A stretch of DNA of 31,420 nt from a virus. Shown piece by piece: positions 1-27,946 of this stretch. A model generated the notes under the pieces. That model was not told the DNA's origin and did not search any database. It worked only from the letters and a program-made list of their open reading frames with translations. The stretch is taken from positions 1 through 31,420 of the IMG/VR virus record IMGVR_UViG_3300025316_000050; one strand, given 5' to 3'. Numbering within the stretch: position 1 is the stretch's first letter; every line of letters begins with the position of its first letter. A program made the position numbers and the translations under genes.

Positions 1-1
1 A

Positions 2-61
2 GCATCAAAACGTGCTGATGGTATAGCCACCAAAGGGTTTACAAAAGGCAGGATGAGATAA
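2..61 (+). CDS. 3' end of a small Arg/Gly/Lys-rich phage protein (partial)
   Basis: Frame 2 is open from the window edge to a TAA at 59-61 and encodes 19 residues ending KRADGIATKGFTKGRMR. The tail matches in pattern the C-terminal part of the small protein at 767-964 (RADGCAERGHTKG), and both share the DNA word CGTGCTGATGG. This argues that it is a real gene end and not chance. The stop overlaps the next start as TAATG, so the two genes are probably translationally coupled. Function is unknown. It belongs to the group of small basic Gly-rich proteins that fills the left end of the window. Confidence 0.6.
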   Translation, partial: ASKRADGIATKGFTKGRMR

Positions 62-540
62 TGCCTAGTACTAGCGCAAAACAACACAAATTTATGGAAG
101 CAATTGCCCATAACAAGGCGTTTGCAAAGAAGGTAGGTGTTCCACAATCGGTGGGGCAGGATTTTAGCAACGCCGATAAAGGCAAAACTTTTAAAGAAGG
201 TGGATCTATGAAGAACGAAATGCACGAACATCATATGCACATGGCGCATCATCACCTACAAGAGGCGATGAAGCATGGTGGTCATGTTAAGAAAATGGCT
301 TCTGGCGGCATGACTACGGGTATGCACGGCGATGATGAGAAAAAAGGCTTGACAACAGCCAAAATGGCCAGAGTCAAAGAAGGCGGCAACAAAGCCCACG
401 GCGAACATAAAGTTCAAGAGCGTGGTCACACACGCGCTATGGAGCCCAAAATGAAGGGCAACACCATTGGTAATGGCCCGTTGGTTAATGTTAAAGGCCC
501 TGCTATGAAACGCGGCGGCAAAACCCATCACAAAAAGTGA
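61..540 (+). CDS. Small Lys/Gly/His/Met-rich protein, putative virion-associated
   Basis: This 159-residue protein starts at the ATG of a TAATG overlap. The N-terminus (MPSTSAKQHKFMEAIAHN then KKVGVPQSVGQDF) is a pattern I recall from hypothetical proteins of uncultured aquatic phages. The rest is low complexity. A His/Met segment at about residues 53-75 is followed by several Lys-Gly-Gly-type elements (KEGGS near 46, KEGGN near 107, KRGGK near 153) and an ERGHTR element near 120. It has no Cys, no signal peptide and no membrane segment. It is strongly basic, so nucleic-acid contact in the virion is possible but unproven. Neighbours are similar small basic proteins upstream of the head-tail connector genes. 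Confidence 0.75.
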   Translation: MPSTSAKQHKFMEAIAHNKAFAKKVGVPQSVGQDFSNADKGKTFKEGGSMKNEMHEHHMHMAHHHLQEAMKHGGHVKKMASGGMTTGMHGDDEKKGLTTAKMARVKEGGNKAHGEHKVQERGHTRAMEPKMKGNTIGNGPLVNVKGPAMKRGGKTHHKK

Positions 541-547
541 GATCAAC

Positions 548-757
548 ATGAAACACCATCATCCAGAACATCACGAGCACGTTCATCCTGCCGGACACGA
601 GCATCCCCATGAGCACAAACACCATGTGCACCACATGAAGGAGCATCACGCAGGTGGGCATACGCACCACTCAGAGCACTACAAAGAGCACGCGGCAGGG
701 CACAAGTTGCACCACCACGAGATTGAGCATTTGCACAAGCACCAAAAACACCACTAG
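548..757 (+). CDS. Extremely histidine-rich small protein
   Basis: The 69-residue product contains 31 histidines by my count (about 45%). The rest is mainly Glu, Lys, Gly and Pro, with one Tyr and no Cys or Trp. Histidines occur in runs of two or three separated by Glu or Lys through the whole length, as in metal-storage or metal-buffering peptides. No hydrophobic core or membrane segment is visible, so it should be disordered without metal. It lies seven bases after the previous stop and nine before the next start, which has a good AGGAG ribosome site. This supports real cotranscription. Binding of Zn, Ni or Cu is inference from composition. Virion decoration is an alternative. Confidence 0.75.
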   Translation: MKHHHPEHHEHVHPAGHEHPHEHKHHVHHMKEHHAGGHTHHSEHYKEHAAGHKLHHHEIEHLHKHQKHH

Positions 758-766
758 GAGCACACC

Positions 767-964
767 ATGCCTATGATGCCAATGGCTAGACCAATGACAC
801 GCCCAATGGGCGCACGTATGCCTGTTGCCCCCATGATGGCGGCGGCTCGTCCGGGCGGTATGAAAAAAGGTGGATCCGCGCATAATCGTGCTGATGGGTG
901 CGCTGAACGCGGTCATACCAAAGGTACGATTGTGATGTGTGGCGGCGGGATGCACAAAAAATGA
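767..964 (+). CDS. Small Met/Pro/Arg-rich protein with KKGG and RADG motifs
   Basis: This 65-residue protein follows an AGGAG ribosome site. The first half is a Met-Pro-Arg-Ala-rich repeat-like stretch (MPMMPMARPMTRPMGARMP). The second half carries KKGGSAHNRADG followed by ERGHTKG and ends CGGGMHKK. The RADG-x-A-x-x-G-x-T-K-G element recurs in the truncated gene at the left edge. The KKGGS element recurs in several neighbours. It has two Cys (near residues 45 and 58). Its stop TGA at 962-964 overlaps the next ATG at 961 as ATGA. No enzyme fold is recognisable. It is probably a minor structural or packaging-related peptide, by location only. Confidence 0.7.
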   Translation: MPMMPMARPMTRPMGARMPVAPMMAAARPGGMKKGGSAHNRADGCAERGHTKGTIVMCGGGMHKK

Positions 965-1215
965 TGGCCAGCCGCGGTATGGGTGATATCAACCCATCCA
1001 AAATGCCCGGCAGAAAGACGATACATCGCAAGGACAATCCAAACGATGTATCAGTCTATAAAAAAGGCGGCGAAGTCTGGGATAAGCCAAGACCAAAAGG
1101 TTTAGGCAAACCCAAGAAACTAACGCCATCCAAAAAAGCCGCAGCTAAAGCTATGGCTAAAAAGGCAGGTCGGCCATATCCAAATTTGGTTGACAACATG
1201 AGAGCGGTTAAATAA
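961..1215 (+). CDS. Small basic protein, conserved in aquatic phages, function unknown
   Basis: I place the start at 961, in the ATGA overlap with the upstream stop, and not at the in-frame ATG at 937, because translational coupling is the rule in this cluster. This gives an 84-residue protein starting MMASRGMGDINPSKMPG. It contains a VYKKGGEVWDKP element and then a Lys/Ala/Pro-rich tract. It ends with AGRPYPNLVDNMRAVK, a C-terminus I recall from hypothetical proteins of freshwater phages. It is very basic, with no Cys, membrane segment or known domain. Its TAA overlaps the ATG of the gp4-like adaptor gene (TAATG), so the two are likely produced together. Confidence 0.72.
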   Translation: MMASRGMGDINPSKMPGRKTIHRKDNPNDVSVYKKGGEVWDKPRPKGLGKPKKLTPSKKAAAKAMAKKAGRPYPNLVDNMRAVK

Positions 1216-2168
1216 TGTCACAAACATCTGGTGTAGCGGCGTTTAATCTACAGCTTCCCGAGTTGGTCGAGGAGGCTTTTGAGCGTTGTGGGGGTGAATC
1301 CCGCACTGGATATGATATTAAAACAGCACGCCGGTCGATGAATTTGCTGTTTGCAGACTGGGCAAATCGCGGTATTAACATGTGGACGTTTGAGCAAGAC
1401 GTCATTACCTTGGTCCAAGGTCAGCCAACATACGTTTTGCCAGACGATACTGTAGATTTACTTGAACACGTTATCAGGACACAACAAAATCAGCCCAGTA
1501 ATCAGGCCGATTTAACGATTACGCGCATCAGTGTGTCTACTTATGCAACGATCCCCAACAAGTTGATACAAGGACGCCCTATCCAATTGTGGATTCAACG
1601 CCTGACAGCCAATACGCAGCCCACAGGAGTGACTGTTTATTCTGCTGTTGGCACTAGTGACACCCAGATAGCCGTTAGCACACTGGCCGGATTGCCAAAT
1701 GCAGGGTTTATTACTCTTGATAATGAGTTAATTGGGTACAACGAACTCCAAGCCGCGGCAAACGGCAGCCCAGCTTACATCTTAAACTGCACCAGAGGTC
1801 AGGGAAACACCACTGCGGCCACCCATAGCGTTGGAATTGCAGTACTTTTGAGTCAAAAGAACAGCGTAACTGTGTGGCCAACACCTGATGGAGCCAATAC
1901 ATACCAGCTTGTGTACTGGAGAATGCGCAGAATGCAAGATGCTGGCGGTGGAACTAACATTCCAGACGTGCCTTTTAGGTTTGTTCCTTGTTTAGTGGCT
2001 GGTTTGTCCTACTATATGGCTTTAAAAGTGCCAGGTGCGCTTGAAAGACTGCAAGTTTTGAAGGCTCAGTACGACGAAGCCTGGGAATTGGCCGCTGGAG
2101 AAGACCATGAAAAGGCTGCGGTAAGGTTTGTGCCTCGCAGAATGTACATTGGTGGGGGATATTCATAA
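1215..2168 (+). CDS. P22 gp4-like tail accessory / head-tail adaptor with inserted beta domain
   Basis: The 317-residue protein begins with a helical segment (LPELVEEAFERCG, then RTGYD, ARRSMNLLFADWANRG at about residues 36-53). This is the pattern of P22 gp4-like adaptors, which form a ring below the portal and stabilise packaged DNA. A SVTVWPTPD strand and VYWRMRRMQDAGG follow at about 217-245. The C-terminal helices (FRFVPCLVAGLSYYMALK, then YDEAWELA) also fit. Between RLTANTQPT and SQKNSVTV, about residues 134-216 form an extra beta-rich module with the IAVSTLAGLPNAGFITLDNE and CTRGQGNTTAATH signatures. As I recall them, compact family members lack it. One copy of the window's CAACAAGTTG word lies at 1556-1565. 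Confidence 0.72.
   Translation: MSQTSGVAAFNLQLPELVEEAFERCGGESRTGYDIKTARRSMNLLFADWANRGINMWTFEQDVITLVQGQPTYVLPDDTVDLLEHVIRTQQNQPSNQADLTITRISVSTYATIPNKLIQGRPIQLWIQRLTANTQPTGVTVYSAVGTSDTQIAVSTLAGLPNAGFITLDNELIGYNELQAAANGSPAYILNCTRGQGNTTAATHSVGIAVLLSQKNSVTVWPTPDGANTYQLVYWRMRRMQDAGGGTNIPDVPFRFVPCLVAGLSYYMALKVPGALERLQVLKAQYDEAWELAAGEDHEKAAVRFVPRRMYIGGGYS
1554..1565 (-). repeat. Dispersed word CAACTTGTTG, copy 1
   Basis: CCCAACAAGTTG on the plus strand (minus-strand orientation of the word), within the gp4-like adaptor gene, read as P-N-K-L. Core at 1556-1565. The strand field for all copies follows the CAAC-TT-GTTG orientation. Confidence 0.75.
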
Positions 2169-2557
2169 TGGGTAACCGATTCTCTTCTGGTAAAAATAGC
2201 ATAAGTGAATGTGATCGGTGCGGATTCAGGTTTAAGCTCACAGAACTCAAAAAAGAGATCATAAAGACGAAGGTTTACAACTTGTTGGTGTGCCCAACTT
2301 GTTGGGACCCCGATCAACCGCAGTTACAGCTTGGAATGTACCCTGTAGATGATCCACAGGGCGTCAGAGACCCCCGTCCGGACCTCAGTTACTACGCATC
2401 AGGCCAACTTGCCGATGGTAGCATTGGAGAAGGCAGTCGAGTATTTCAGTGGGGCTGGAACCCTGTGGGTGGTGCTAGTCAATTTGATGTTCCTTTGACT
2501 CAAAATGATTTGCTTCTACAGGTACAAATTGGTACAGTTACGATAGTCACAACGTAG
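2168..2557 (+). CDS. Zinc-ribbon phage protein
   Basis: This 129-residue protein starts in a TAATG overlap. Two CxxC knuckles, C15-x2-C18 and C42-x2-C45 (CDRCGFRF and CPTCWDPD), form a likely zinc ribbon in the first 50 residues. Between them is a Lys-rich strand-like segment. The remainder (LGMYPVDDPQGVRDPRPD onward) is Gly/Gln-rich and predicted beta-rich. The family is common in aquatic phages between the two adaptor genes, as I recall. Its role is unknown, and structural or packaging-associated is inferred from position. Two copies of the CAACTTGTTG word at 2278-2287 and 2295-2304 fall in the second knuckle region. The second copy encodes PTCW, including the ligand C45. Confidence 0.72.
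   Translation: MGNRFSSGKNSISECDRCGFRFKLTELKKEIIKTKVYNLLVCPTCWDPDQPQLQLGMYPVDDPQGVRDPRPDLSYYASGQLADGSIGEGSRVFQWGWNPVGGASQFDVPLTQNDLLLQVQIGTVTIVTT
2278..2306 (+). repeat. Dispersed word CAACTTGTTG, copies 2 and 3 (pair)
   Basis: Two cores at 2278-2287 and 2295-2304, 17 bases apart start to start. The second is extended to the full CCCAACTTGTTGGG at 2293-2306. They are read in different frames, N-L-L and P-T-C-W, within the zinc-ribbon gene. Confidence 0.85.
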
Positions 2558-2566
2558 GAGTTTAGA

Positions 2567-2758
2567 ATGAAACACGACGACATTAAAGAAGACAAAAAGC
2601 TCATTAAAAAGGCTTTTTCGATGCATGATAAGCAAGAGCACCCCGGGAAGAAAACCAACTTGTCCAAGTTGAAAAAGGGTGGCCCAACAGGCAAAGATAT
2701 GCGTGCTGTTGGTCGCAATCTGGCCCGTGCTCACAACCAAAAACCTGGGAGTAAGTAA
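2567..2758 (+). CDS. Small basic protein with KKGG motif
   Basis: The 63-residue protein follows a TAGGAG ribosome site. It is highly charged: MKHDDIKEDKKLIKKAFSMH leads into KQEHPGKKTNLSKL, then KKGGPTGKDMRAVGRN and a basic tail. The N-terminal half should be helical. The KKGG element and the following Arg/Gly pattern link it to the small proteins at 61-540, 767-964 and 961-1215. No catalytic motif is present. Its TAA overlaps the next ATG (TAATG). A perfect 7-bp inverted repeat at 2656-2671 inside it resembles half of the dispersed CAACTTGTTG word. Binding to packaged DNA or the connector is only a guess. Confidence 0.7.
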   Translation: MKHDDIKEDKKLIKKAFSMHDKQEHPGKKTNLSKLKKGGPTGKDMRAVGRNLARAHNQKPGSK

Positions 2759-3045
2759 TGAAGACCCAAGTTAAACCAACCAAAAAGAATAGCCCTGCTA
2801 TTCACCGCGCTCACGACGTAACCAACGGCCCTGCTGATGAGTATGCAAAACCTCATGACATGAAAGGCCGCAAAGTCGGTCCTGAAGCTGCATTTACAGA
2901 GCCAGAGTTCCAAAAGAAAAAGAACTGGGTGCCTTTGATGGGTGTGTCCATTACGATGGATGACCGCGTTGAGACTGAAGGCATCAAGATTCGTGGTACA
3001 GGCGCGGCAATTAAAGGCGTGATGGCCAGAGGCCCAATGGCATGA
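2758..3045 (+). CDS. Small protein ending in RGTGAA motif, function unknown
   Basis: The 95-residue product lies between the zinc-ribbon and SU10-adaptor genes and is coupled on both sides (TAATG upstream, ATGA downstream at 3042-3045). It has a polar N-terminus (about residues 1-40) and a middle segment FQKKKNWVPLMGVSITMD. The C-terminal IKIRGTGAAIKGVMARGPMA resembles the short Arg-Gly-x-Gly-Ala-Ala tails I recall from other aquatic phage hypotheticals. No Cys, signal or membrane segment is seen. Position suggests a minor head or connector component, but nothing in the sequence proves a function. Confidence 0.7.
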   Translation: MKTQVKPTKKNSPAIHRAHDVTNGPADEYAKPHDMKGRKVGPEAAFTEPEFQKKKNWVPLMGVSITMDDRVETEGIKIRGTGAAIKGVMARGPMA

Positions 3046-3902
3046 ACTACACTCAGCTTAAACAACTGATTCAGGACTATACGCAAAACTACGAAACTAC
3101 TTTCGTGGCGGATATTCCTACGTTTGTTGAACAAGCTGAGCAACGGATTTTTAACTCAATCCAGTTCCCGTCCTTGCGTAAAAATGTGGTAGGGTCAATT
3201 ACGCCATACAATCAATATTTGGCGCTCCCTTCTGACTTTTTGGCTCCGTACTCACTGGCTATTTATGAAAATGCTTCTACAACAGCCACAGGTACTTCAG
3301 GCGCTTATACCATCACGGTTGGATCCAGCTCAAATATTATCCCGGGACAGATTGCTTCTGGGACAGGTATTGCGCCAGGAGCCCTTGTTGTTAGCCTTAA
3401 TGGACTTGTTGTTACTTTAAATTTACCAAATACGGCCACAGTCTCTGGCACAATAACATTCCAAGGCAACTATTCATTTTTACTCAACAAAGACGTTAAC
3501 TTCATTCGTGAAGTCTACGGCAACCCCATTGCTTACGGCACGCCACAATACTACGCATTGTTTGGCCCAACAGTTGTATCAAGTGTGATAACGACCAATT
3601 TGTCTGTAATTATGGGGCCAACACCTGACACCAATTACTATTCCGAGCTCCACTATTACTACTATCCCGTGTCCATTTCACAAACGGCAGATGGCACAAG
3701 TTGGCTTGGAAACAATTTTGATACCGTGCTTTTGTACGGCTCTTTGGTTGAGGCTTACACCTTCATGAAGGGTGAGCAAGACATGATGGGTTTGTATAAC
3801 CAGAAGTATGTTGAAGCACTTGCCTTGGCCAAACGTCTTGGAGATGGGATGGAAAGACAGGATGCGTACCGCACTCCACAATTTAGGCAGGCAGTTACAT
3901 GA
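3042..3902 (+). CDS. SU10-type head-tail adaptor protein with inserted domain
   Basis: The 286-residue protein starts MNYTQLKQLIQDYTQNYET and continues with a helical IPTFVEQAEQRIFNSIQFPSLRK block (residues 25-47), a YLALPSDFLAPYSLAIY strand region (59-75), YSFLLNKDVNFIREVYG (144-160), LHYYYYPVSI and a C-terminal helical ALLYGSLVEAYTFMKGEQD-type segment. This order matches SU10-like adaptor proteins, which dock onto the portal and nozzle. A Gly/Ser/Thr-rich beta module (about residues 80-141, TITVGSSSNIIPGQ, ATVSGTITFQ) is inserted before YSFLLN. The start overlaps the previous stop as ATGA, and the stop overlaps the next start the same way. Confidence 0.75.
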   Translation: MNYTQLKQLIQDYTQNYETTFVADIPTFVEQAEQRIFNSIQFPSLRKNVVGSITPYNQYLALPSDFLAPYSLAIYENASTTATGTSGAYTITVGSSSNIIPGQIASGTGIAPGALVVSLNGLVVTLNLPNTATVSGTITFQGNYSFLLNKDVNFIREVYGNPIAYGTPQYYALFGPTVVSSVITTNLSVIMGPTPDTNYYSELHYYYYPVSISQTADGTSWLGNNFDTVLLYGSLVEAYTFMKGEQDMMGLYNQKYVEALALAKRLGDGMERQDAYRTPQFRQAVT

Positions 3903-16619: not shown

Positions 16620-17858
16620 ATGACTACTACAGCATCAGCAACACCATCACAAATAACAGAATACCAAACAGGGTTTGCGCCTGAAATAGCAGATTACGGG
16701 CAAGCTTTGTTGGGTGAAGGTGCGTACTTTACAAACCCCCAAACCAACCCTTATCAGCAGTATCAAGGCCCACAAGTTGCTGGGTTTACGCCTTTGCAAC
16801 AGCAGTCCTATAACTCAGCCGAGGCATTGCAGTCTTCAGGTCAATTGCAAGATGCTTCTGCTATGGCAGGTATGGCGGGTATGGGCGGCTTAAATGCCAG
16901 TTACACATACAGCCCATATCAAGCAGGCCAAGCCAATGCACCTACGCTTAATAACTATCAAATGCAGGGGCCGGGCAACGTAGGCACTCAAAGTTTCACA
17001 AGTCCGGGCGTAGCACAAAGCTACATGAATCCGTATTTGATGAATTCTTTAGCGCCTCAGATGGCGCTGTTGAATCAACAACAGGGAGCACAAGCTCAAC
17101 AAAATGCGGCTCAAGCAACGCAAGCTGGGGCGTTTGGTAATTCACGTTTTGGTGTACAGAATGCGGCACAAAATCAAGCCAACCAACTGGCTTCTGCCAA
17201 CGTGTATGGTCAAGGTTTAAATAACGCCTACAACACCGCTCAAGGCCAATTTAATACCGAACAAGGGGCCAACCTACAGGCTCAGTTGGCCAATCAAAAT
17301 ATGGGCTATAACGTAGGGAATACAAACCTACAAGCAATGCTTGGCGTACAAAATCTTGGCGCTGGCCAGAATTTACAATCGCAGTTGGCCAATCAAAGCG
17401 CCAATCAATCAGCCGCCAATCTCAATGCACAGCAAGGACAATTTGGTGCTAATCTGGGGCTTCAAGGATTGAATGCCGCCAATACAGCGGCCAGTACCTT
17501 GGGCACGCTGGGTAATGCTCAGTACAACCAAAATATTGGTATTATCGGTCTACAAAATCAACTTGGCGGACAGCAACAACAGCAAGTCCAGAACCAGATG
17601 AATGTTGATCAGCAGAACGCCCTGAATGCTCAGAACTTCCCGTATCAGCAGATGAATTTCATGTCCAATCTGATTCGAGGACTACCAATGACGCAACAAA
17701 GCGCCTCTGTATACCAGGCCCCTCCAAGCACGCTATCTCAGGTGGCTGGAGCAGGCTTGACTGCGGCCGCATTGATGCATGCAAAAGAAGGCGGTTCTAC
17801 CAAAGACATCAGGTCAAGAGGTATTGTTGATTTGGCTCTAGCCAAGATGGAGGCATAA
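16620..17858 (+). CDS. Gln/Asn/Ala-rich virion protein
   Basis: The 412-residue protein follows an AAGGGA site. Its central part (about 140-345) is extremely rich in Gln, Asn, Ala and Gly with a loose period (QNAAQNQANQLA, LQAQLANQNMGYNVGNTNLQ). It should form long helices or coiled coil, or behave as a prion-like segment. The N-terminus carries ITEYQTGFAPEIADYGQALL. The C-terminus has PPSTLSQVAGAGLTAAALMH (a hydrophobic segment) and AKEGGSTKDIRSRGIVDLAL, sharing the K-x-G-G-S element with the left-end small proteins. Podoviral internal or ejected proteins are often similarly Gln/Ala-rich, so an ejection-protein role is plausible. No enzyme motif. Confidence 0.65.
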   Translation: MTTTASATPSQITEYQTGFAPEIADYGQALLGEGAYFTNPQTNPYQQYQGPQVAGFTPLQQQSYNSAEALQSSGQLQDASAMAGMAGMGGLNASYTYSPYQAGQANAPTLNNYQMQGPGNVGTQSFTSPGVAQSYMNPYLMNSLAPQMALLNQQQGAQAQQNAAQATQAGAFGNSRFGVQNAAQNQANQLASANVYGQGLNNAYNTAQGQFNTEQGANLQAQLANQNMGYNVGNTNLQAMLGVQNLGAGQNLQSQLANQSANQSAANLNAQQGQFGANLGLQGLNAANTAASTLGTLGNAQYNQNIGIIGLQNQLGGQQQQQVQNQMNVDQQNALNAQNFPYQQMNFMSNLIRGLPMTQQSASVYQAPPSTLSQVAGAGLTAAALMHAKEGGSTKDIRSRGIVDLALAKMEA

Positions 17859-19279: not shown

Positions 19280-22200
19280 ATGCCAATCGCAAGATTTGAA
19301 TTGCCCGATGGACGCATAGGGCGCTTTGAGGTTCCTGATGGCACAACGCCAGAACAGGCGATGCAGCTTATCTCCAGTAATTTGAGCAGCTTGATTCCAA
19401 AAGAGGAGCCAGCCCAACAAGTTGAGGCGACTGCCGCTCCGACCGCCCAACAAGTTGAGCCCCAAGGCAATTACAGCGAAATGAAACCATATGAGCCATC
19501 CTTTATGGAAGGTCTCATGAATTTAATTCCATCAAATAAAGCAAAATCAGCCAATGAATTTGCGGCCAGAAGAATTGCACAAGAGCAAGGCATACCCGTA
19601 TCTCAAGTTTATACAAATGCTGGTGGCGCTAGGCCAATCTTTAATCCAGAAGGCAGACCTCCTATTAAAGCAGGCGTAGAGGCTGCGCAAGTTGTCGCCA
19701 GCGAGGCGCCCAATATTGTTCCAGCGGTGATATCCACAGGATTACAAGCTGTCCGCGCAGGAGATATTGAATCACCCGAAGACAAAGGATGGCTCGATAA
19801 AACAATTTCAGCCATGAAGCCAACAAGGCCCGATGGCCAGCCAGACAAGAATTATGAGTCTTTCCAGGGTATCGGTGAATCCTTGGGCTTTAGTCTTGCC
19901 TCTATGGTGGCCAGCGCTACCGCTGATGCCGCCGCTACATTAGCTACCGCAAATCCAATTATTGGTACTGCGGCTGGTATGGCAACATCCGGAGCCCTTG
20001 CCTACAGGGCGCAAAAAGATGACTTCTTGAGTAGGGTTCGAGATAAATTAAATGATCAGTCTGTAAAAATTTACGGTCATCCAATTAGCCAAAAAGAATG
20101 GGATAGCGCCCGCAAAGAATACAACCAGGCCGCAGTAGAGTATGGCGCCTGGGAAGCCATACCAGAGGCCGTTAGTAATGCTGTATTCCTTAAAGCTTTT
20201 GCCGCTCCAGCCAAAGGCGCATCTAGACTTGCTAGTATTGCAGAAAAAGTAGGCTCTCAAGTTGTTGAGCAGGCGACTGAGACGGCCACCAATTTAGGTC
20301 AAAATGCCGCTGAACTTAAAGCTGGTTTAACCAATCAAGAAATGAGTCTTGCCGACGCCTTTCGACAGCAGTTTTTACAAACCATAATGATTGGCGGCGT
20401 AATGTCCGGTGGAGCTACTGGACTTGAGGCTGCAAACAAATTTTATAAAGAAAAAGTTGAGCCAAGAGTGGCGCCTAATTCTGCGTTGGCAAAAGCCATT
20501 AAAGCAGATATAGATGCTATTGCATTTTCACCTGAAAACATTCGCAAAGAAGCTGTTAGTAGACTTGATCCAAATTCTTACAATCAAGAGTTAATTCAAC
20601 AAGAGCCTGTTAGAAGTCCGCCTGCTGCTATGGCGCCCACTGCTCCGCCACCTACCCAACAAGTTGAGCCGCGTGTTGAGGCCGCTCCATCTGAAAGCCA
20701 AAATACTCAGGCCATGTTGGACGAGCTCACTGGTGAGGCTCCCGCAGAAAAACCTAAAGCAGAAGGGCCAAAAACACTTGACGATCATGTTAATAGTTTT
20801 GCAAACACTGTATATGATTTTGGCATAAAGACAGAAAAAGACCTTAAGGAGATGGATCCAAGTGAGGCAAAAAATAATATTAAAGAAGCTATTCTTGATG
20901 AAATAAAAGAACACGGAAAACTATCCAAAGATACTCGATCCGCTCTTTTTGAATTGGGAATTGATCAAAATCAAATAGACAATTTTGATAATGCCATCAA
21001 GCCGTTTGTTCCTGCTGCGCCTCAAAACACTCCCAAGCTGCCACCCAAAGTCGAACAAGTAGCCAGTTTCCCAATGGGCGAAAACACAGAATATCATGTT
21101 CTGAAAACGCCCACAGGTTACACCGCCAACATGTTTGACAAAGATGCGGGCAAATATGTTCCTGGTTCTGCAAAAATGTTTCCCACCAAGACGTTTGGGG
21201 ATGAGGCCCAGACAAAAGCTGTTGATTATGTAAAAGAACAGGCTGAAAAAGCAGCTAAATTTAATCCTGTTGAAAAGCCGCAAGAGGTGGTGACTCCACC
21301 TGAAAAAACTAAAACATTCCCATCTCATCTATCGCCTGAGTTCCAAGCCGCTTATGAGAATCACTTAAAGTCTGCTGATGCCGCCAATAAAGCCAAGTCT
21401 ATGGCCAAAGTTGGAACGGCAACCCAAGCACAGGCGCAGCCGTTTATAGATCGGGCAGAGAAAGCTCGTGCTGATATGTATGAGGCTTTATTCAAAGAAA
21501 GAGACAATCTCAGTCCAGAGAATAAAGAAACTATAGATCTTGCTCAAAGAGCCATTGATGTAGGTCAAAGAGGGTTTGCGGAGGGGATGCTATCCAACAT
21601 CATAAAAAACAGACCCCCTACTCCGCAAGATATGGATTTTCGAAGAACTAGAACGGCGGAACTCGAGACTCAAGCAAAGCCCAAAGAAAATGTTCCCATC
21701 AAAGAAACTCACAATCTTGACACGCTTTTTGAAAATTATCCACTTGATAAAAAGCGTTTAGATAATCTTAGTACATTTGACGATAGAACAAAAGAATCAA
21801 TAGCAAAGACCAATGAGTATTTGCAAAAGCTTGCCGATGCAATTAACGCTAAAGGGTTCAGGGTTTTTGAGGGCCATGCGTCAATGCCACAGGACGTCAA
21901 GAATCTTAAAGATGCATTTACAAACTTACATGCTGGTGCAAATCGCGTTTTATTGGACACTCAACATGTTGCCGGCAAAGAAGCCAGGAAGAGCAAAAAG
22001 TCTCATGGCGAGCAAAATGTAGAAATCCAAGCGGCGCAAAAGAAGCTCAATAAGTCTCACATTGAGCAAAACAAAGACATTGAAAAGGCCAGGGATTTGT
22101 TGGGTGAGATCAAGCGCAAAGAACCCAAATCTGCGTTTAAGCGTGATGAATTACAGGGTACGCCAGCACCACTACCGGAAGAAATTTCGGCTGCAGAAGA

Positions 22201-25200
22201 AACAGTTAGGTTAAACAAACAAGATATTAATAAAGCAAAGCGTGCGTCTTATAGTCTTTGGACTGCATTAAAAGGTACTTTAACGGCCGGGAATGTTGCC
22301 GATCTTGGTGACTCATATCGCATGTTGAAAGCCGGTAAAGGCAAGCAAGGTACTGATATATCAAGTCTTGTGCATTCGGGGGCCCTTGATCCATTTTTGC
22401 CCTTCAAGATGCGTACAGACTCAGACACATATGACGAGCTCGATGCTGTTGAAGAAATTAAAAGTAGATTGTCGGCAAAGAATTATTTGACCTATGAAGC
22501 GGAAATGGAAATCAAACAGCTCATGGGGTCAATTGAAGATGCTGAAGATCAAATCCGTGAATACTTAACACTGAAAGAAGTCAATGAACTCATCGACCAA
22601 GCAGCAGATGAACAAAGAGAGGCTGATCTCGACGCTCGAACACTTGAGTCCGAACGCGAGGAGGGAGCTATTGGAGCAGGCGAGAATGAATTGGCACTTA
22701 CAGGGCAAACACCTGAAGAAGTCCGGGCAGCAGAACGCGCCAAGAAAGACCGTCTAAAAGCCGATAAAGAAGCGGAGGCCAAGGCCAAAGCCGACGAAGG
22801 TGTTGAAGACTTTACATTGACTGGTAGTAACCGTCCTGCTGATATTGCAGCCGCTCAAGGTCAAGAGGGTCTGTTTGATCAACCAAAAGTTGAAGAGAAG
22901 CCTGCCGAGATGGAGGCCTTGAACGACAAAATACATGAGGTTGTTGAGCAAAAATCTCAAGAGTTTCAACCTGGTGACCATGCAAGCTTGGGCTCTGTTC
23001 CCGGAGTGGTGTTGGGGGTCGAAGGCGACTACGTTAAATTCAAGCCAGACAATGCCCCGAATCCCAAGGCATATCAACGAGTCCCCGCAAAAACATTGAC
23101 ATTTAATTTTAGGCCCGGCGCCGAACCCAAAGTTGCTGCATCCAAAGCGTCTGATCAACAGACCGGGACAGAAAAGGGCAAGTTAAACGCAGACATGGGC
23201 GGCCTTATTAAGCTTTTGGGCGCCAATATGTATGCGGCCAACATAGCAGACGTATCTGTAAAAGAATTGCTCCAAAACGCTTTTGATGCGTCCAAGGCTG
23301 CGGTCAAGTTGGGCTTGGTCAGCGTGGGCAAGATTGACATTGTTGTTAATGATAAAGAAAGAACGATCACGGTTACGGATAACGCTCGCGGTATGACGCC
23401 TAGCATCGTTAAAGATGCGTTCTTTACTGTAGCTGGATCCGATAAGTCTGACCTCGACCCCAAGGAACGTAGTGGTGGATTAGGCCTGGCCAAGATGGGA
23501 TTTATGCTTGGTTCTGAAAGGCTTAAACTTGATACCGTCAGGGATGGAATTAGGACTATCGTCGATACTGACTCGCAAGCAATTGCTGATAGTAAGTTTG
23601 ACATTAAGAAAACCAAAGCTCCGCAAATAGAGCACGGTACATCGGTAACGGTTAAGATTCCAGAGAAATATACCGACCCCAAAACTGGCGATCAAAAAGA
23701 TATTTGGTTTCCCTACAACAAGGATAGCATCGACACATTGAAGCAGCCACTTGTTGGTCCTGTCGAAGTAACTGTTGACTTTGACGGCAACAAAGAGACG
23801 TTGCCTATTGGGGTTAACTTTGATGACAAGAAAATGCCCAAGTTAACAACGGTGCATTTCTCATGGGGTGATGCCGATGTTTATTTTGGCGTTGATAGAA
23901 AAGAATCTACGGGGTACAGAAACAGACCCAGCCACAAGGTGCTGTCTAGTGGCGTTTATCAATTTAGACATGACTTTGCTTTAAATCAATCTGAGATTAT
24001 TCCTTACGATATTCTTGTCAACGTTAAGCCTGATGTAGATGCAAAGCATCCAGACTATCCGTTTGAGAATAGTCGCGAGCGTTTTAAGGGTCGTATTGAG
24101 GCGGATATTAAATCCCTTGGGCAGTACCTGCAACAAGTGGCAATGGGCAATGAGGCCAAGGACTTGCAAGAAAACTTCAAGGGTATTGTTTCAATGCCCC
24201 GTCTAGAGGTTGGGTCTGAGATTGCTGACGCATCCAAGAAACTTAAAAAAGCTTTTGACACCAGAAACGCCGGCAACGAAAAGAAATTTGAATTGCCTCC
24301 GGTTCCGCGGGAAATCTTTGTTAGCGATGGATTTGTTAAAACCAAAGCTGGCGAAGATTTGGTAAAGCCAACAGACAACAAAAAAGAATCAACTTTTACT
24401 TCTGAAAAAGAAGCGCCCAAGATGGCTGATTTCATGGTTAACATGAAACAAGACCCCAAGCTGCCTATCTTTCACAACAACACAAATGTTGACTATCTTG
24501 AAGTTGGCAGACCTTACGGTGACCCAGAAAAGTTTTTTGCGGAGATGGGCACGCTATTGGTTGAGATGAAAGAAGAGCTTGCTAACAGTGGTATTTACAA
24601 ATATGACATGCTCAAGCCAGAGAATCTCTTCTTCGGCGGTATTTCTATCGATAAAAAGTATGGTGGCGTTCATATCAAAGTCCCATACAAAGGCGTGTTT
24701 GTTAATCCGTTTTATGACTTTGGCGCAAAAACACTGGCCGGCGTTAGGGAGACAATTCTCAACACAATGATTCATGAGATTGCCCATACAGGCAGCATGT
24801 CTCACGGTGTTGAACACAACGGGCAGATGATTAAAGTTGCCAATCATCTTGCGGATGCGAGTATGATGGATTACTACCGAGATGCCATCATGGACATTTT
24901 GGTGAGAAATGAATCTGCATTTACTGCAATGAGGGAAGCATATGGAAAATCAACTACACAAAACACTTCAAAGTCTTTTGAAGATTACGACAAGTCCGCA
25001 GCCTCAAAAGCACCTGGAACAACTCAAGGCGTGGGTGTCAACCAATCTTCAACTGTACCAACAGGAGGGAAACAAAGAAGCTTATTCCCTCTATCAGGAG
25101 CTGGACAAACTGGTGGGCAAGGCCAAGTCAATCAAGGAGGTGGAGGCGCTCCTATAGGCCAACAAGGCAACATGTTCCCGCCCGGTCCTCCAAGCAAGAG

Positions 25201-27946
25201 GAACGTATTTGGCGGACCGGCTCCTAAAAACTCTTGGGAACTCGCGCCTGAGACCAAGCTTGGTCATTTGATAAACACGCTTGATTATAAAATTCATGAT
25301 AAGCATGTCGATACAAGACAAGTCCAGGCGGCTATCACAAAGAATGCCGGGCTGATTGACGACACATTTGATGCGTACATGAAGGAAGAGCTGTATCACA
25401 GTAGAACAGCCAATGAGATTAAAGATTTTCTCAAGAAAGATTTAAGTCCTATCATTGGAGACCTGATTAAAGACCGTCTCAATATTGACGATCTTGAGCA
25501 ATATTTACATAACCGACATGCCGAAGAGCGTAACGACGCCATTGCACAGATCAATCCCAGGTTTGCAGACGTCGATAATGAGCCCGGGTCCGGTATTGGC
25601 ACTAAAGCAGCCAGAGATTACTTTAAAAACCTTGATCCAACAAAAGCGGCTCAACTTGCAAAAATTGCCGCAAAGGTTGACGATATCATCAAGGGCACGC
25701 AAAAGATTTTGGTTGACCGCGGTCTTGAGACCCAGCAAACTATTGACAACTGGAATGGAGCCTACAAGCATTACATCCCACTTATGAGGGATCAGGAAGA
25801 GCTTGACTTCATGCATAACGGCGCCGGTCTTGGAAAAGGATTCCAAGTCAAGGGAAGCGCATCAAAGCGTGCTTATGGCTCTACGAAGTCCGTTGTAGAC
25901 ATCCTAGCCAACATCGCCATCCAACGTGAGAGCGCAGTCATCCGTTCCGAGAAAGCCCGCATCGGTCGTGCGCTCTACGGTTTAGCCTTAAAAAACCCAA
26001 ACCCAGACTTCTGGTTGCCCGTCAATCCTGATGCGGTCAAGAATAAAGCGGCTTTGTATCAAGAGCTTATTGCAATGGGCCTACCCATTTCTGTTGCACA
26101 AAACTTCATCCAAGAACCAAAGACCCCCAGTATTGATCCGCTGACAGGCCAAGTTCGGTACACCATCAATGCCGGCCTCAGAAGTAGCCCTAACGTCTTC
26201 CCTGTTCGAATTAATGGTAAAGACCGTTACATCTTCTTCAACACAAAGGATCCCAAAGCCATCAGAATGGCCCAGGCAATGTCAAACTTGGACGCCCAGA
26301 CCTTGGGTGGCCTGCTTGGTACGACGGCGCTTATAACGCGTTGGATCGCGTCTGTTAATACTCAATACAATCCTGTGTTTGGAGTTGTTAACTTTTATCG
26401 CGATACCCAGGGTGCGATGTTTAACATGACGAACACGCCTTTGGCTGGAATGCAAAAAGAGGTTTTAAGCCATGTGTTTCCTGCTATGTTTGCCATCATA
26501 CAAAATGAACGGGCAAGCAGAAACAATAAGACGGTAACAAACCCATACTCTGTTTTATATGATCGGTTCCGTAGAGCTGGCGGTACGACTGGGTTTAGAG
26601 AGGCATTTGCAAAAGGCAACTTCAGCGGCAAAGACACAACGATTATCGAAAGATTGTGGAAAGAAGAGACTCAGGGCGCCGCCATGAAAAAGGCGAGGTA
26701 TATCTTTGATGCGCTTTCAGACTACAACGAAGCAATGGAAAATGCGGTTCGCTTGTCCATCTTCAAGGTCGCGCTTGATCACAATCTAAGCGAAGAGCGC
26801 TCCGCTAGTCTTGGTAAAAACATCACCATCAACTTTAACCGCAAAGGTCAATCGACACCGCTGTTTCAAGCTTTATACGCATTCTTTAATCCTGCCGTAC
26901 AGGGCACGGTTCTTGTTGGTAAAACGCTTGCCGGGCCAGCAGGAAGAAAAATTGTTGCCGGCGGTCTTGCTATTGGTGTTCTTCAGGCTTTATGGATGGC
27001 CGCGGCTGGCTTTGACGCCGACGAACCACCAGACTACGTCAGAGACAAAAACTTCATCATTCCAATCGGAAATAAGAAGTATTTAACACTACCAATGCCT
27101 CCGGGATACAATGTAATTCCTGGCCTATCCCGAATTATTACCGAATATGTCCTCGGTCAAAACCATTTAATCAGTGGCGGTAAGCCCCTCACTGATGCGG
27201 CAGCTCAGATTTTGACTTTATTTGTAGATTCATTTAATCCATTGGGCGGTGGATCATTGTTACAAATGGTGTCCCCAACCGTCATCGATCCTATTGCGGC
27301 TACGGCTATGAATAAAGACGCATTTGGGCGTCCAATCTTTAAAGAAGATTTATCCACAAAACCAACACCTGGATTCATGAGAAGCCGGGAGAACGCAACA
27401 CAAGTTAGTCAATGGATTGCTGAGTTTTTAAACTACGTCAGCTCGCCTGCGGGCACGCATTACACAAAAGGCAAATGGAGTCCAACTGCGGATGAAATTG
27501 ACTACTACGCAGGTCAAGTTGGTGGAGGAGCCGCTCGAGAGGCCATTAAAGCCGCCGAGCTGGCCAAATCAGCCTTTACTAGTGAACCGGTACCCAGCTA
27601 CAGAATTCCGCTTGCAGGGCGGTTCTATGGGGATGCAAAGAGCCAATCAGCCATTCAAGACAAGTTTTACAACAACATCACGTTGATGAATAAATATGGT
27701 AATGAAATCACCAATATTCAAAAGTCTGGCCAGGATCCAAGTAAATACATGCGCGCACATCCAGAGGCGCAACTTTACAACGCGGCGTCCAATTTCAATA
27801 ACGCCATTAATGAAATGAATAAAAATAAAAAGAACATGCTGAAGAATAAACTTCCATTAAAAGATATTCGTGAGTATGAGGCTCAAAAATATCAAATAAT
27901 GAAAACTTTCAACGATCAGGTTGCTAGTGCCCAGAAACAGAGATAA
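19280..27946 (+). CDS. Giant polyvalent protein: GHKL ATPase + zincin peptidase + LPD38-like C-terminus
   Basis: The 2888-residue protein follows an AAGGA site. Domains in order: N-terminal PIARFELPDGRIGRFEVPDG module (1-35); Pro/Gln linker with two QQVE; Gly/Ala hydrophobic helices (about 204-245, 375-395); long Lys/Glu-rich linkers; GHKL/Hsp90-type ATPase (about 1295-1450) with N-box ELLQN (E1329, N1333), DNARGM (D1367, G1371) and GGLGLAK (1399-1405); a strand-rich region to about 1640; zincin domain with H1832-E-I-A-H1836 and H1842; a Gly/Gln linker (about 1890-1970); then a C-terminal region (about 1975-2888) with NPVFGVVNFYRDTQGAMFN and FNPAVQGTV, resembling LPD38. Polyvalent proteins of this kind are thought to be injected with the DNA and act on the host at once. 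ATPase and peptidase calls are strong, LPD38 moderate, role inferred. Confidence 0.8.
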   Translation: MPIARFELPDGRIGRFEVPDGTTPEQAMQLISSNLSSLIPKEEPAQQVEATAAPTAQQVEPQGNYSEMKPYEPSFMEGLMNLIPSNKAKSANEFAARRIAQEQGIPVSQVYTNAGGARPIFNPEGRPPIKAGVEAAQVVASEAPNIVPAVISTGLQAVRAGDIESPEDKGWLDKTISAMKPTRPDGQPDKNYESFQGIGESLGFSLASMVASATADAAATLATANPIIGTAAGMATSGALAYRAQKDDFLSRVRDKLNDQSVKIYGHPISQKEWDSARKEYNQAAVEYGAWEAIPEAVSNAVFLKAFAAPAKGASRLASIAEKVGSQVVEQATETATNLGQNAAELKAGLTNQEMSLADAFRQQFLQTIMIGGVMSGGATGLEAANKFYKEKVEPRVAPNSALAKAIKADIDAIAFSPENIRKEAVSRLDPNSYNQELIQQEPVRSPPAAMAPTAPPPTQQVEPRVEAAPSESQNTQAMLDELTGEAPAEKPKAEGPKTLDDHVNSFANTVYDFGIKTEKDLKEMDPSEAKNNIKEAILDEIKEHGKLSKDTRSALFELGIDQNQIDNFDNAIKPFVPAAPQNTPKLPPKVEQVASFPMGENTEYHVLKTPTGYTANMFDKDAGKYVPGSAKMFPTKTFGDEAQTKAVDYVKEQAEKAAKFNPVEKPQEVVTPPEKTKTFPSHLSPEFQAAYENHLKSADAANKAKSMAKVGTATQAQAQPFIDRAEKARADMYEALFKERDNLSPENKETIDLAQRAIDVGQRGFAEGMLSNIIKNRPPTPQDMDFRRTRTAELETQAKPKENVPIKETHNLDTLFENYPLDKKRLDNLSTFDDRTKESIAKTNEYLQKLADAINAKGFRVFEGHASMPQDVKNLKDAFTNLHAGANRVLLDTQHVAGKEARKSKKSHGEQNVEIQAAQKKLNKSHIEQNKDIEKARDLLGEIKRKEPKSAFKRDELQGTPAPLPEEISAAEETVRLNKQDINKAKRASYSLWTALKGTLTAGNVADLGDSYRMLKAGKGKQGTDISSLVHSGALDPFLPFKMRTDSDTYDELDAVEEIKSRLSAKNYLTYEAEMEIKQLMGSIEDAEDQIREYLTLKEVNELIDQAADEQREADLDARTLESEREEGAIGAGENELALTGQTPEEVRAAERAKKDRLKADKEAEAKAKADEGVEDFTLTGSNRPADIAAAQGQEGLFDQPKVEEKPAEMEALNDKIHEVVEQKSQEFQPGDHASLGSVPGVVLGVEGDYVKFKPDNAPNPKAYQRVPAKTLTFNFRPGAEPKVAASKASDQQTGTEKGKLNADMGGLIKLLGANMYAANIADVSVKELLQNAFDASKAAVKLGLVSVGKIDIVVNDKERTITVTDNARGMTPSIVKDAFFTVAGSDKSDLDPKERSGGLGLAKMGFMLGSERLKLDTVRDGIRTIVDTDSQAIADSKFDIKKTKAPQIEHGTSVTVKIPEKYTDPKTGDQKDIWFPYNKDSIDTLKQPLVGPVEVTVDFDGNKETLPIGVNFDDKKMPKLTTVHFSWGDADVYFGVDRKESTGYRNRPSHKVLSSGVYQFRHDFALNQSEIIPYDILVNVKPDVDAKHPDYPFENSRERFKGRIEADIKSLGQYLQQVAMGNEAKDLQENFKGIVSMPRLEVGSEIADASKKLKKAFDTRNAGNEKKFELPPVPREIFVSDGFVKTKAGEDLVKPTDNKKESTFTSEKEAPKMADFMVNMKQDPKLPIFHNNTNVDYLEVGRPYGDPEKFFAEMGTLLVEMKEELANSGIYKYDMLKPENLFFGGISIDKKYGGVHIKVPYKGVFVNPFYDFGAKTLAGVRETILNTMIHEIAHTGSMSHGVEHNGQMIKVANHLADASMMDYYRDAIMDILVRNESAFTAMREAYGKSTTQNTSKSFEDYDKSAASKAPGTTQGVGVNQSSTVPTGGKQRSLFPLSGAGQTGGQGQVNQGGGGAPIGQQGNMFPPGPPSKRNVFGGPAPKNSWELAPETKLGHLINTLDYKIHDKHVDTRQVQAAITKNAGLIDDTFDAYMKEELYHSRTANEIKDFLKKDLSPIIGDLIKDRLNIDDLEQYLHNRHAEERNDAIAQINPRFADVDNEPGSGIGTKAARDYFKNLDPTKAAQLAKIAAKVDDIIKGTQKILVDRGLETQQTIDNWNGAYKHYIPLMRDQEELDFMHNGAGLGKGFQVKGSASKRAYGSTKSVVDILANIAIQRESAVIRSEKARIGRALYGLALKNPNPDFWLPVNPDAVKNKAALYQELIAMGLPISVAQNFIQEPKTPSIDPLTGQVRYTINAGLRSSPNVFPVRINGKDRYIFFNTKDPKAIRMAQAMSNLDAQTLGGLLGTTALITRWIASVNTQYNPVFGVVNFYRDTQGAMFNMTNTPLAGMQKEVLSHVFPAMFAIIQNERASRNNKTVTNPYSVLYDRFRRAGGTTGFREAFAKGNFSGKDTTIIERLWKEETQGAAMKKARYIFDALSDYNEAMENAVRLSIFKVALDHNLSEERSASLGKNITINFNRKGQSTPLFQALYAFFNPAVQGTVLVGKTLAGPAGRKIVAGGLAIGVLQALWMAAAGFDADEPPDYVRDKNFIIPIGNKKYLTLPMPPGYNVIPGLSRIITEYVLGQNHLISGGKPLTDAAAQILTLFVDSFNPLGGGSLLQMVSPTVIDPIAATAMNKDAFGRPIFKEDLSTKPTPGFMRSRENATQVSQWIAEFLNYVSSPAGTHYTKGKWSPTADEIDYYAGQVGGGAAREAIKAAELAKSAFTSEPVPSYRIPLAGRFYGDAKSQSAIQDKFYNNITLMNKYGNEITNIQKSGQDPSKYMRAHPEAQLYNAASNFNNAINEMNKNKKNMLKNKLPLKDIREYEAQKYQIMKTFNDQVASAQKQR
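19413..19458 (-). repeat. Dispersed word, copies 8 and 9 (pair)
   Basis: Two CCCAACAAGTTGA copies at 19413-19425 and 19446-19458, 33 bases apart, both read as Q-Q-V-E in the N-terminal linker of the giant protein. Confidence 0.8.
20655..20667 (-). repeat. Dispersed word, copy 10
   Basis: CCCAACAAGTTGA read as Q-Q-V-E in a Pro/Ala-rich linker of the giant protein, near residue 460. Confidence 0.8.
24942..25157 (+). CDS. Candidate overprinted small gene in the linker of the giant protein
   Basis: In the +1 frame relative to the giant gene, an ATG at 24942 preceded by GAGGGAAG opens a 71-residue frame. Its product looks protein-like: MENQLHKTLQSLLKITTSP, KHLEQLKAWVSTNLQLYQQ, then EAYSLYQELDKLVGKAKSIK, with Leu-spaced amphipathic helices. 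In the giant frame the same stretch is a low-complexity Gly/Gln/Ser/Pro linker, which is the sort of place where a second gene can persist. It may equally be a chance frame. There are no neighbours in its frame and no homologue that I recognise. Confidence 0.3.
   Translation: MENQLHKTLQSLLKITTSPQPQKHLEQLKAWVSTNLQLYQQEGNKEAYSLYQELDKLVGKAKSIKEVEALL

Follow-up and report, generated by a model that had tools for sequence, protein, structure and literature searches.

A histidine-rich protein family encoded in the capsid-to-adaptor block of environmental phages, with metal binding as a tentative role

The window analysed here, a virus record of 31,420 bases, encodes a 69-residue protein, designated HIS, in which 31 residues (44.9%) are histidines spanning positions 3 to 69. 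Codon comparison indicates that HIS is a translated product under strong purifying selection, and the homologue search proposed by an earlier, sequence-only reading of this DNA recovered 193 frames, encoding 109 distinct proteins of a family carried by uncultured tailed phages, from profile searches of 228 viral loci (the window counted); since some loci overlap on one contig, frame counts are not phage counts. It is proposed, tentatively and with rather less than even confidence, that HIS may be a metal-chelating protein in a virion-assembly setting, acting with the product of the gene immediately upstream. Coordinates of the features are collected in Table 1.

Table 1. HIS, its repeat units and the neighbouring genes in the window
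Feature	Position	Strand	Remarks
HIS	548..757	+	69 aa, 31 His; 109 distinct relatives; dN/dS 0.03 versus closest relative
HIS repeat unit 1, residues 23-37 (HKHHVHHMKEHHAGG)	614..658	+	Lag-15 register of conserved His
HIS repeat unit 2, residues 38-52 (HTHHSEHYKEHAAGH), best-conserved part	659..703	+	His kept at 38, 40, 48 and 52 in 96% or more (52 relatives)
HIS partial repeat unit 3, residues 53-67	704..748	+	
Upstream partner protein, 159 aa	61..540	+	Upstream of HIS in 139/142 relatives with enough sequence
Partner N-terminal domain, ~44 residues	61..192	+	Common to phiKZ 165.1 and N-termini of jumbo-phage structural proteins
Partner His/Met-rich segment, residues 53-75	217..285	+	In 36/36 high-His genomes, 0/37 low-His; alignment
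65-aa Met/Gly-rich protein, KKGG and MCGGG tags	767..964	+	
g83, small basic protein marking the downstream side of the slot; SRGMGxIxPSKMP domain	964..1215	+	phrog_34011; downstream of HIS in 173/173
Adaptor A (SU10_adaptor match)	1215..2168	+	Pfam PF24175; tree of 92 rows
Adaptor B (SU10_adaptor match)	3042..3902	+	Pfam PF24175, E 1.6e-18

Composition, flanks and selection

The composition given by the sequence-only reading, 69 residues with about 45% histidine, is accurate. Histidine accounts for 0.9% of codons (71/7,769) in 12 large genes of the window, and with positions 541-757 excised the runner-up 69-residue stretch in the six frames of the window holds 13 histidines, while none of the 4,571 other open reading frames of at least 55 residues in the viral loci compared reached 20%. 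A search of positions 1-3100 found no tandem DNA repeat, so HIS is not a simple-sequence expansion, and an origin as an artefact or by chance was rejected on the strength of the composition, the dN/dS ratio, the repeat search and the open reading frame comparison. The same reading had allowed only charged or small residues between the histidines, which is incorrect: 12 of the 69 residues are Ala, Val, Ile, Leu, Met or Tyr and three are Pro. Cysteine is absent. Histidine codons in HIS favour CAC over CAT (21:10, versus 23:48 in the other window genes; P 0.001), and a translation-efficiency signature was considered on this basis and dropped, CAC being favoured above neighbouring genes in just 22 of 39 loci (P 0.2), which is not a family trait.

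The clean flanks and coupled cluster described previously are borne out by the spacing of the genes. The upstream stop codon ends at 540, seven bases before the HIS ATG at 548, and the HIS stop ends at 757, nine bases before the next gene, which starts at 767; further on, adjoining genes share a single base at 964 and again at 1215. No sigma-70-like promoter was found in positions 1-3100 of the window.

Relatives were gathered from IMG/VR by scanning with the HIS protein (39 loci), with alignment A1 (68 loci), with a lower-His form of the protein (80 kept of 204 relatives) and, independently of histidine, with g83 (at least 529 relatives, of which 80 were kept). Histidine content in the family ranges from 3.7 to 44.9%, the window protein being the highest of the 109; 33 distinct proteins have at least 30%, 36 have 15-30% and 40 have less. 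Over its 69 codons, HIS of the window differs from its closest relative (locus L001) by 14.5 synonymous and 3.5 non-synonymous changes (dS 0.65, dN 0.02, ratio 0.03), and dN/dS was below 1 in all 166 family pairs with usable dS (median 0.19; 545 saturated pairs were left out). These values uphold the earlier view that the composition is not sequence drift, and the ratio of 0.03 contradicts the possibility, also raised then, that no product is translated. Both CAC and CAT are in use at the fixed His columns.

Repeat register and predicted structure

An even spread of histidines had been reported; they do extend over nearly the whole protein, although with a register of about 15 residues rather than mere evenness. 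The His profile correlates with itself most strongly at a lag of 15 (r 0.34), and the unit can be written H-x-H-H-x-x-H-hydrophobic-K-x-H-x-A-G, two full copies being followed by a partial third in the window protein. Across 52 aligned relatives the share with histidine is 98% at position 33, 96% at positions 38 and 40, 98% at position 48, 100% at position 52 and 94% at position 55. The suggestion that His content might fail to be conserved in orthologues is therefore half borne out: total His varies from 4 to 45%, yet columns 33, 38, 40, 48, 52 and 55 are kept at 94% or more. The apparent invariance of positions 41, 48 and 52 among the first seeds is partly ascertained, because those seeds contained the core motif; L099 and L105, from the g83-seeded set, are family members without parts of that motif. 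The register is retained in lower-His relatives, as in L103 (EHKHNMDHVKQHAAGHMHEQDKVKQHSAGHKMHHDHVKAMCGGG), and in some cases it makes up the C-terminal part of a longer protein. In three loci a second protein with a similar His repeat adjoins HIS (L033 285-938, L059 1684-2301 and L061 3286-3903), with Phe instead of His at one repeat position.

Conserved histidines would lie on one helical face over residues 38-57 (moment P 0.009; five-residue arc P about 0.004), both regions having been picked with the data in view. There is a weak excess of His pairs spaced i,i+4 (17, versus 13.1 in shuffles; P 0.045), with fewer at i,i+3, and HxH pairs are not enriched (12, versus 13.5 in shuffles). AlphaFold models are of low confidence, both for HIS of the window (pLDDT 53, mostly coil with one helix at 55-66) and for a lower-His form (pLDDT 55, helix 4-43). 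Most lower-His relatives have a KAMCGGG-type tail in place of the partial third unit (residues 53-67), and a Cys tail of the form C-x-G-G occurs in 69 of 76 lower-His relatives versus 4 of 33 high-His members, as though the two groups had swapped His and Cys as ligands. A one-for-one replacement of His by Cys at a single repeat position was also considered and dropped, the register being off by one.

A fixed genomic slot and the upstream partner

In addition to two SU10-type adaptors, the window encodes an M15 endolysin, an S74-tipped fibre, ERF, an exonuclease and a protein annotated as a stabilisation protein in cultured relatives. By gene content it carries the structural block of a short-tailed phage, presumably a podovirus. 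L001, a longer relative, has among the preceding genes one for a capsid protein, with matches to the capsid genes of cultured HTVC023P, DSL-LC04 and Pag-Yong1. HIS sits inside a capsid-to-adaptor block, as might be expected of a virion accessory or internal protein, with the partner before it and an SRGMG-type g83 after it. When the g83-seeded loci are left out of the counts in Table 1, the partner is upstream in 110 of 113 and g83 downstream in 141 of 141. Within the g83-seeded loci that cover the partner (from the 80 kept of at least 529 relatives), HIS is present in 35 of 64 and absent in 29; L101 and L127 hold a HIS relative missed by the first profile, and L122 a further candidate. Given this occupancy and the constancy of the neighbours, the slot is fixed and HIS is its common, though optional, occupant. 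Some genomes (L032 and L034) have HIS fused to further small proteins of the cassette, and HIS shares end tags with neighbouring proteins.

HIS was not among the genes listed between capsid and adaptor in the cultured cousins HTVC023P, DSL-LC04, Pag-Yong1, CRP-902 and 023Pt_psg01. Gp48 of Pelagibacter phage HTVC023P (L078 5784-6143; 119 aa) has a short cluster of histidines, eight in all. Scanning of bacterial genomes with the HIS profile returned no relative, and scanning with g83 returned two MAG contigs, one of them in a Gammaproteobacteria bin and both lacking HIS. In relatives, the gene directly 3' of the capsid gene resembles, by eye, an HNH or GIY-YIG homing endonuclease (L001 7304-7894, L011 6861-7433 and L034 369-1118). 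Elsewhere in the window, positions 19280-27946 encode a protein of 2,888 residues that has an LPD38 polyvalent-protein domain and matches HATPase weakly. The tags K-K/R/E/H-G-G, RADGxAxRGxTKG and MCGGG are common to small proteins of the capsid-to-adaptor block (window 61-1215 and 2567-2758; L079 1713-2639; other loci). K[KREH]GG occurs in the window only in four such small proteins and in the C-terminal region of a 412-residue protein (16620-17858), which has a weak match to a DNA ejection protein.

The partner protein begins with a domain of about 44 residues (MPSxSKKQHNFM...FAKKVGVPQSVGKDF) that was found in 110 cultured phage records. This domain constitutes the 58-residue phiKZ protein 165.1 (L082 3629-3805) and starts an 844-residue GAP32 protein annotated as virion structural (L083 3001-5535; phrog_22033), and it may serve as a common piece for targeting to the virion or to assembly. 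The sequence-only reading had also pointed to a His/Met-rich segment at residues 53-75 of the partner, which is real and conserved in the alignment of near relatives. Its presence, scored by the pattern A[HEQK]HHL in distinct pairs, follows the His content of HIS: 36 of 36 partners of high-His members have it, 7 of 36 of the middle class, 0 of 37 of the low class and 0 of 29 where HIS is missing. In the tree built on the adaptor (92 rows), the window belongs to a clade of 14 (100/100), all of which are high-His, and five changes of the high-His label are needed over the tree; the partner segment also appears in separate clades in which the His content of HIS is raised (L101; and L089, L099 and L106). 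The His percentage of HIS shows a rank correlation of 0.66 with that of the partner, 0.57 with that of g83 and 0.09 (not significant) with that of the adaptor, although the associated P values overstate independence because the genomes are related.

Possible functions and comparison with known systems

Three functions had been offered for HIS: a metal buffer, a pH-responsive coat peptide and a membrane-active peptide. The last is unsupported, HIS being poor in hydrophobic residues and carrying a net charge of −2 with His uncounted, whereas metal binding appears to fit best. In the mechanism tentatively proposed here, the His side chains of HIS would bind transition-metal ions of the Zn/Ni/Cu class in the manner of Hpn and SmbP. 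A chain that is otherwise flexible would become ordered on binding metal, and the metal-bound protein would join the partner's His/Met helix; together the two could serve in head or neck assembly as a metal-bridged accessory, or be carried by the particle as metal-loaded cargo. We infer metal binding, helix formation, a physical partnership and presence in the virion for HIS, counting in favour the purifying selection, the fixed His columns, the lag-15 register, the helical face, the i,i+4 excess, the link to the partner, the Cys tail, the slot and the presence of the partner's N-terminal domain at the start of virion structural proteins. Counted against it are the low pLDDT, the lack of HxH enrichment, the tenfold variation in His content, the absence of HIS from 29 of 64 g83-seeded loci, the kinship of the genomes behind the partner correlation and the fact that g83 is also correlated. 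An extension of the proposal, on balance unlikely, is that HIS and the partner helix form a two-protein metal store or metal-triggered lock in the virion, with many ions per particle; were it true, metal binding or loss would control head/neck stability or genome release, and such phages would be metal-dependent particles and carriers of organically bound metal.

The histidines could feasibly act instead through charge, with HIS as a pH-switched polycation whose charge goes from near neutral at pH 7 to about +29 on full protonation, binding packaged DNA or the capsid in acid and releasing it at neutral pH. HIS alone is near neutral in a very basic neighbourhood (+9 to +16), the median net charge without His is −1 for high-His members versus +21 for partners, and what changes most between clades is His content and not sequence, all of which would suit such a switch. 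However, bulk charge would not need fixed positions in the His register and leaves the Cys tail of the lower-His relatives without a role, and we consider this reading improbable; the fixed register, that Cys tail and the joint rise with the partner point to metal coordination over bulk charge. A place outside the particle is similarly improbable, HIS then serving late in infection as a metal buffer in the host cell, for example by shielding assembly or lysis from free metal. A composition like that of Hpn, a cellular nickel-sequestering protein as described in an excerpt of PMC4671568, would accord with this, as would the optional nature of the gene (absent from 29 of 64 g83-seeded loci, from the 80 kept of at least 529 relatives), but HIS is locked to one slot of a structural block, is fused in L032 and L034 to other small cassette proteins and has end tags in common with its neighbours. 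Finally, it is quite improbable that HIS is a flexible assembly or scaffold peptide whose histidines make metal-free contacts with virion proteins, since high His is stable within the clade of 14 and tied to the His helix of the partner, even though a His fraction ranging from 4 to 45%, the low confidence of the AlphaFold models and a cassette rich in low-complexity basic proteins would all be in keeping with such a role.

No family match was found for HIS or the relatives tested in Pfam and NCBIfam (curated cut-offs), PHROGs or the PDB, a PHROG match at E 0.09 and the few Pfam and NCBIfam matches below threshold being treated as chance; a PDB profile search with HIS itself was likewise without a match. 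Searches of 50,697 cultured phage records gave nothing credible (best E 3 to 5) and plasmids gave no match, nulls that are in both cases weakened by the BLAST low-complexity filter. The earlier statement that no characterised phage protein of this kind was known agrees with these searches, in which no described phage family was found, and with the literature, in which none was found as judged from listings rather than full texts.

Several known systems nevertheless bear comparison with HIS. SmbP corresponds to Pfam SMBP and carries its His repeats on helices. The protein, from Nitrosomonas europaea, is His-rich, periplasmic and binds Cu, Ni, Zn and Mn, as stated in an excerpt of PMC10893511. 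HIS is similarly His-rich but is encoded in a phage structural block; it had no match to Pfam SMBP at E 0.1, and ten related proteins had none at E 10. As to a helical His face, the His moment over residues 38-57 has P 0.009, while the models stand at pLDDT 53 and 55. The internal head proteins IPI-III of T4 are small accessory proteins dispensable for assembly (PMC9958956, in part), and HIS is likewise absent from many related genomes, although no sequence relation is seen and packaging of HIS is putative. HxH iron sites have been proposed in phage tail fibres, those of T4 gp37 and Alteromonas phage R22Y (excerpt of PMC11705849), and these are the nearest printed phage idea found, again with His-based metal binding proposed for a phage structural protein. 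They are, however, His pairs in large trimeric fibres as opposed to a small His repeat encoded between capsid and adaptor genes; HIS is not a fibre gene, and its 12 HxH pairs compare with 13.5 in shuffles.

The closest likeness in size and composition is to Hpn of Helicobacter pylori, which has 60 residues with 28 histidines, serves to sequester nickel and has a second His-rich protein, Hpn-2, as an interaction partner, according to the same excerpt of PMC4671568. HIS, too, falls within 60-70 residues with at least 40% His and would act with a second protein, one that carries a His/Met-rich segment. Hpn is bacterial and contains two Cys pairs, whereas HIS lacks Cys, repeats its His in a 15-residue register and is encoded among phage structural genes; neither NCBIfam nor Pfam gave a match that would indicate homology, a weak test for low-complexity sequence. 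By analogy, HIS may work like Hpn, with no claim of membership. The family also exposes short tags shared by uncharacterised structural proteins of a large environmental phage group. Hpn-type His-rich chelators are known from bacteria, and the phage version, a dedicated and widespread His-rich protein locked in the capsid-to-adaptor block, did not turn up in the literature searched or in cultured phage records; if HIS binds metal in the virion, it would provide a genetic handle on the use of metal by phage particles, hitherto discussed for the HxH sites of tail fibres.
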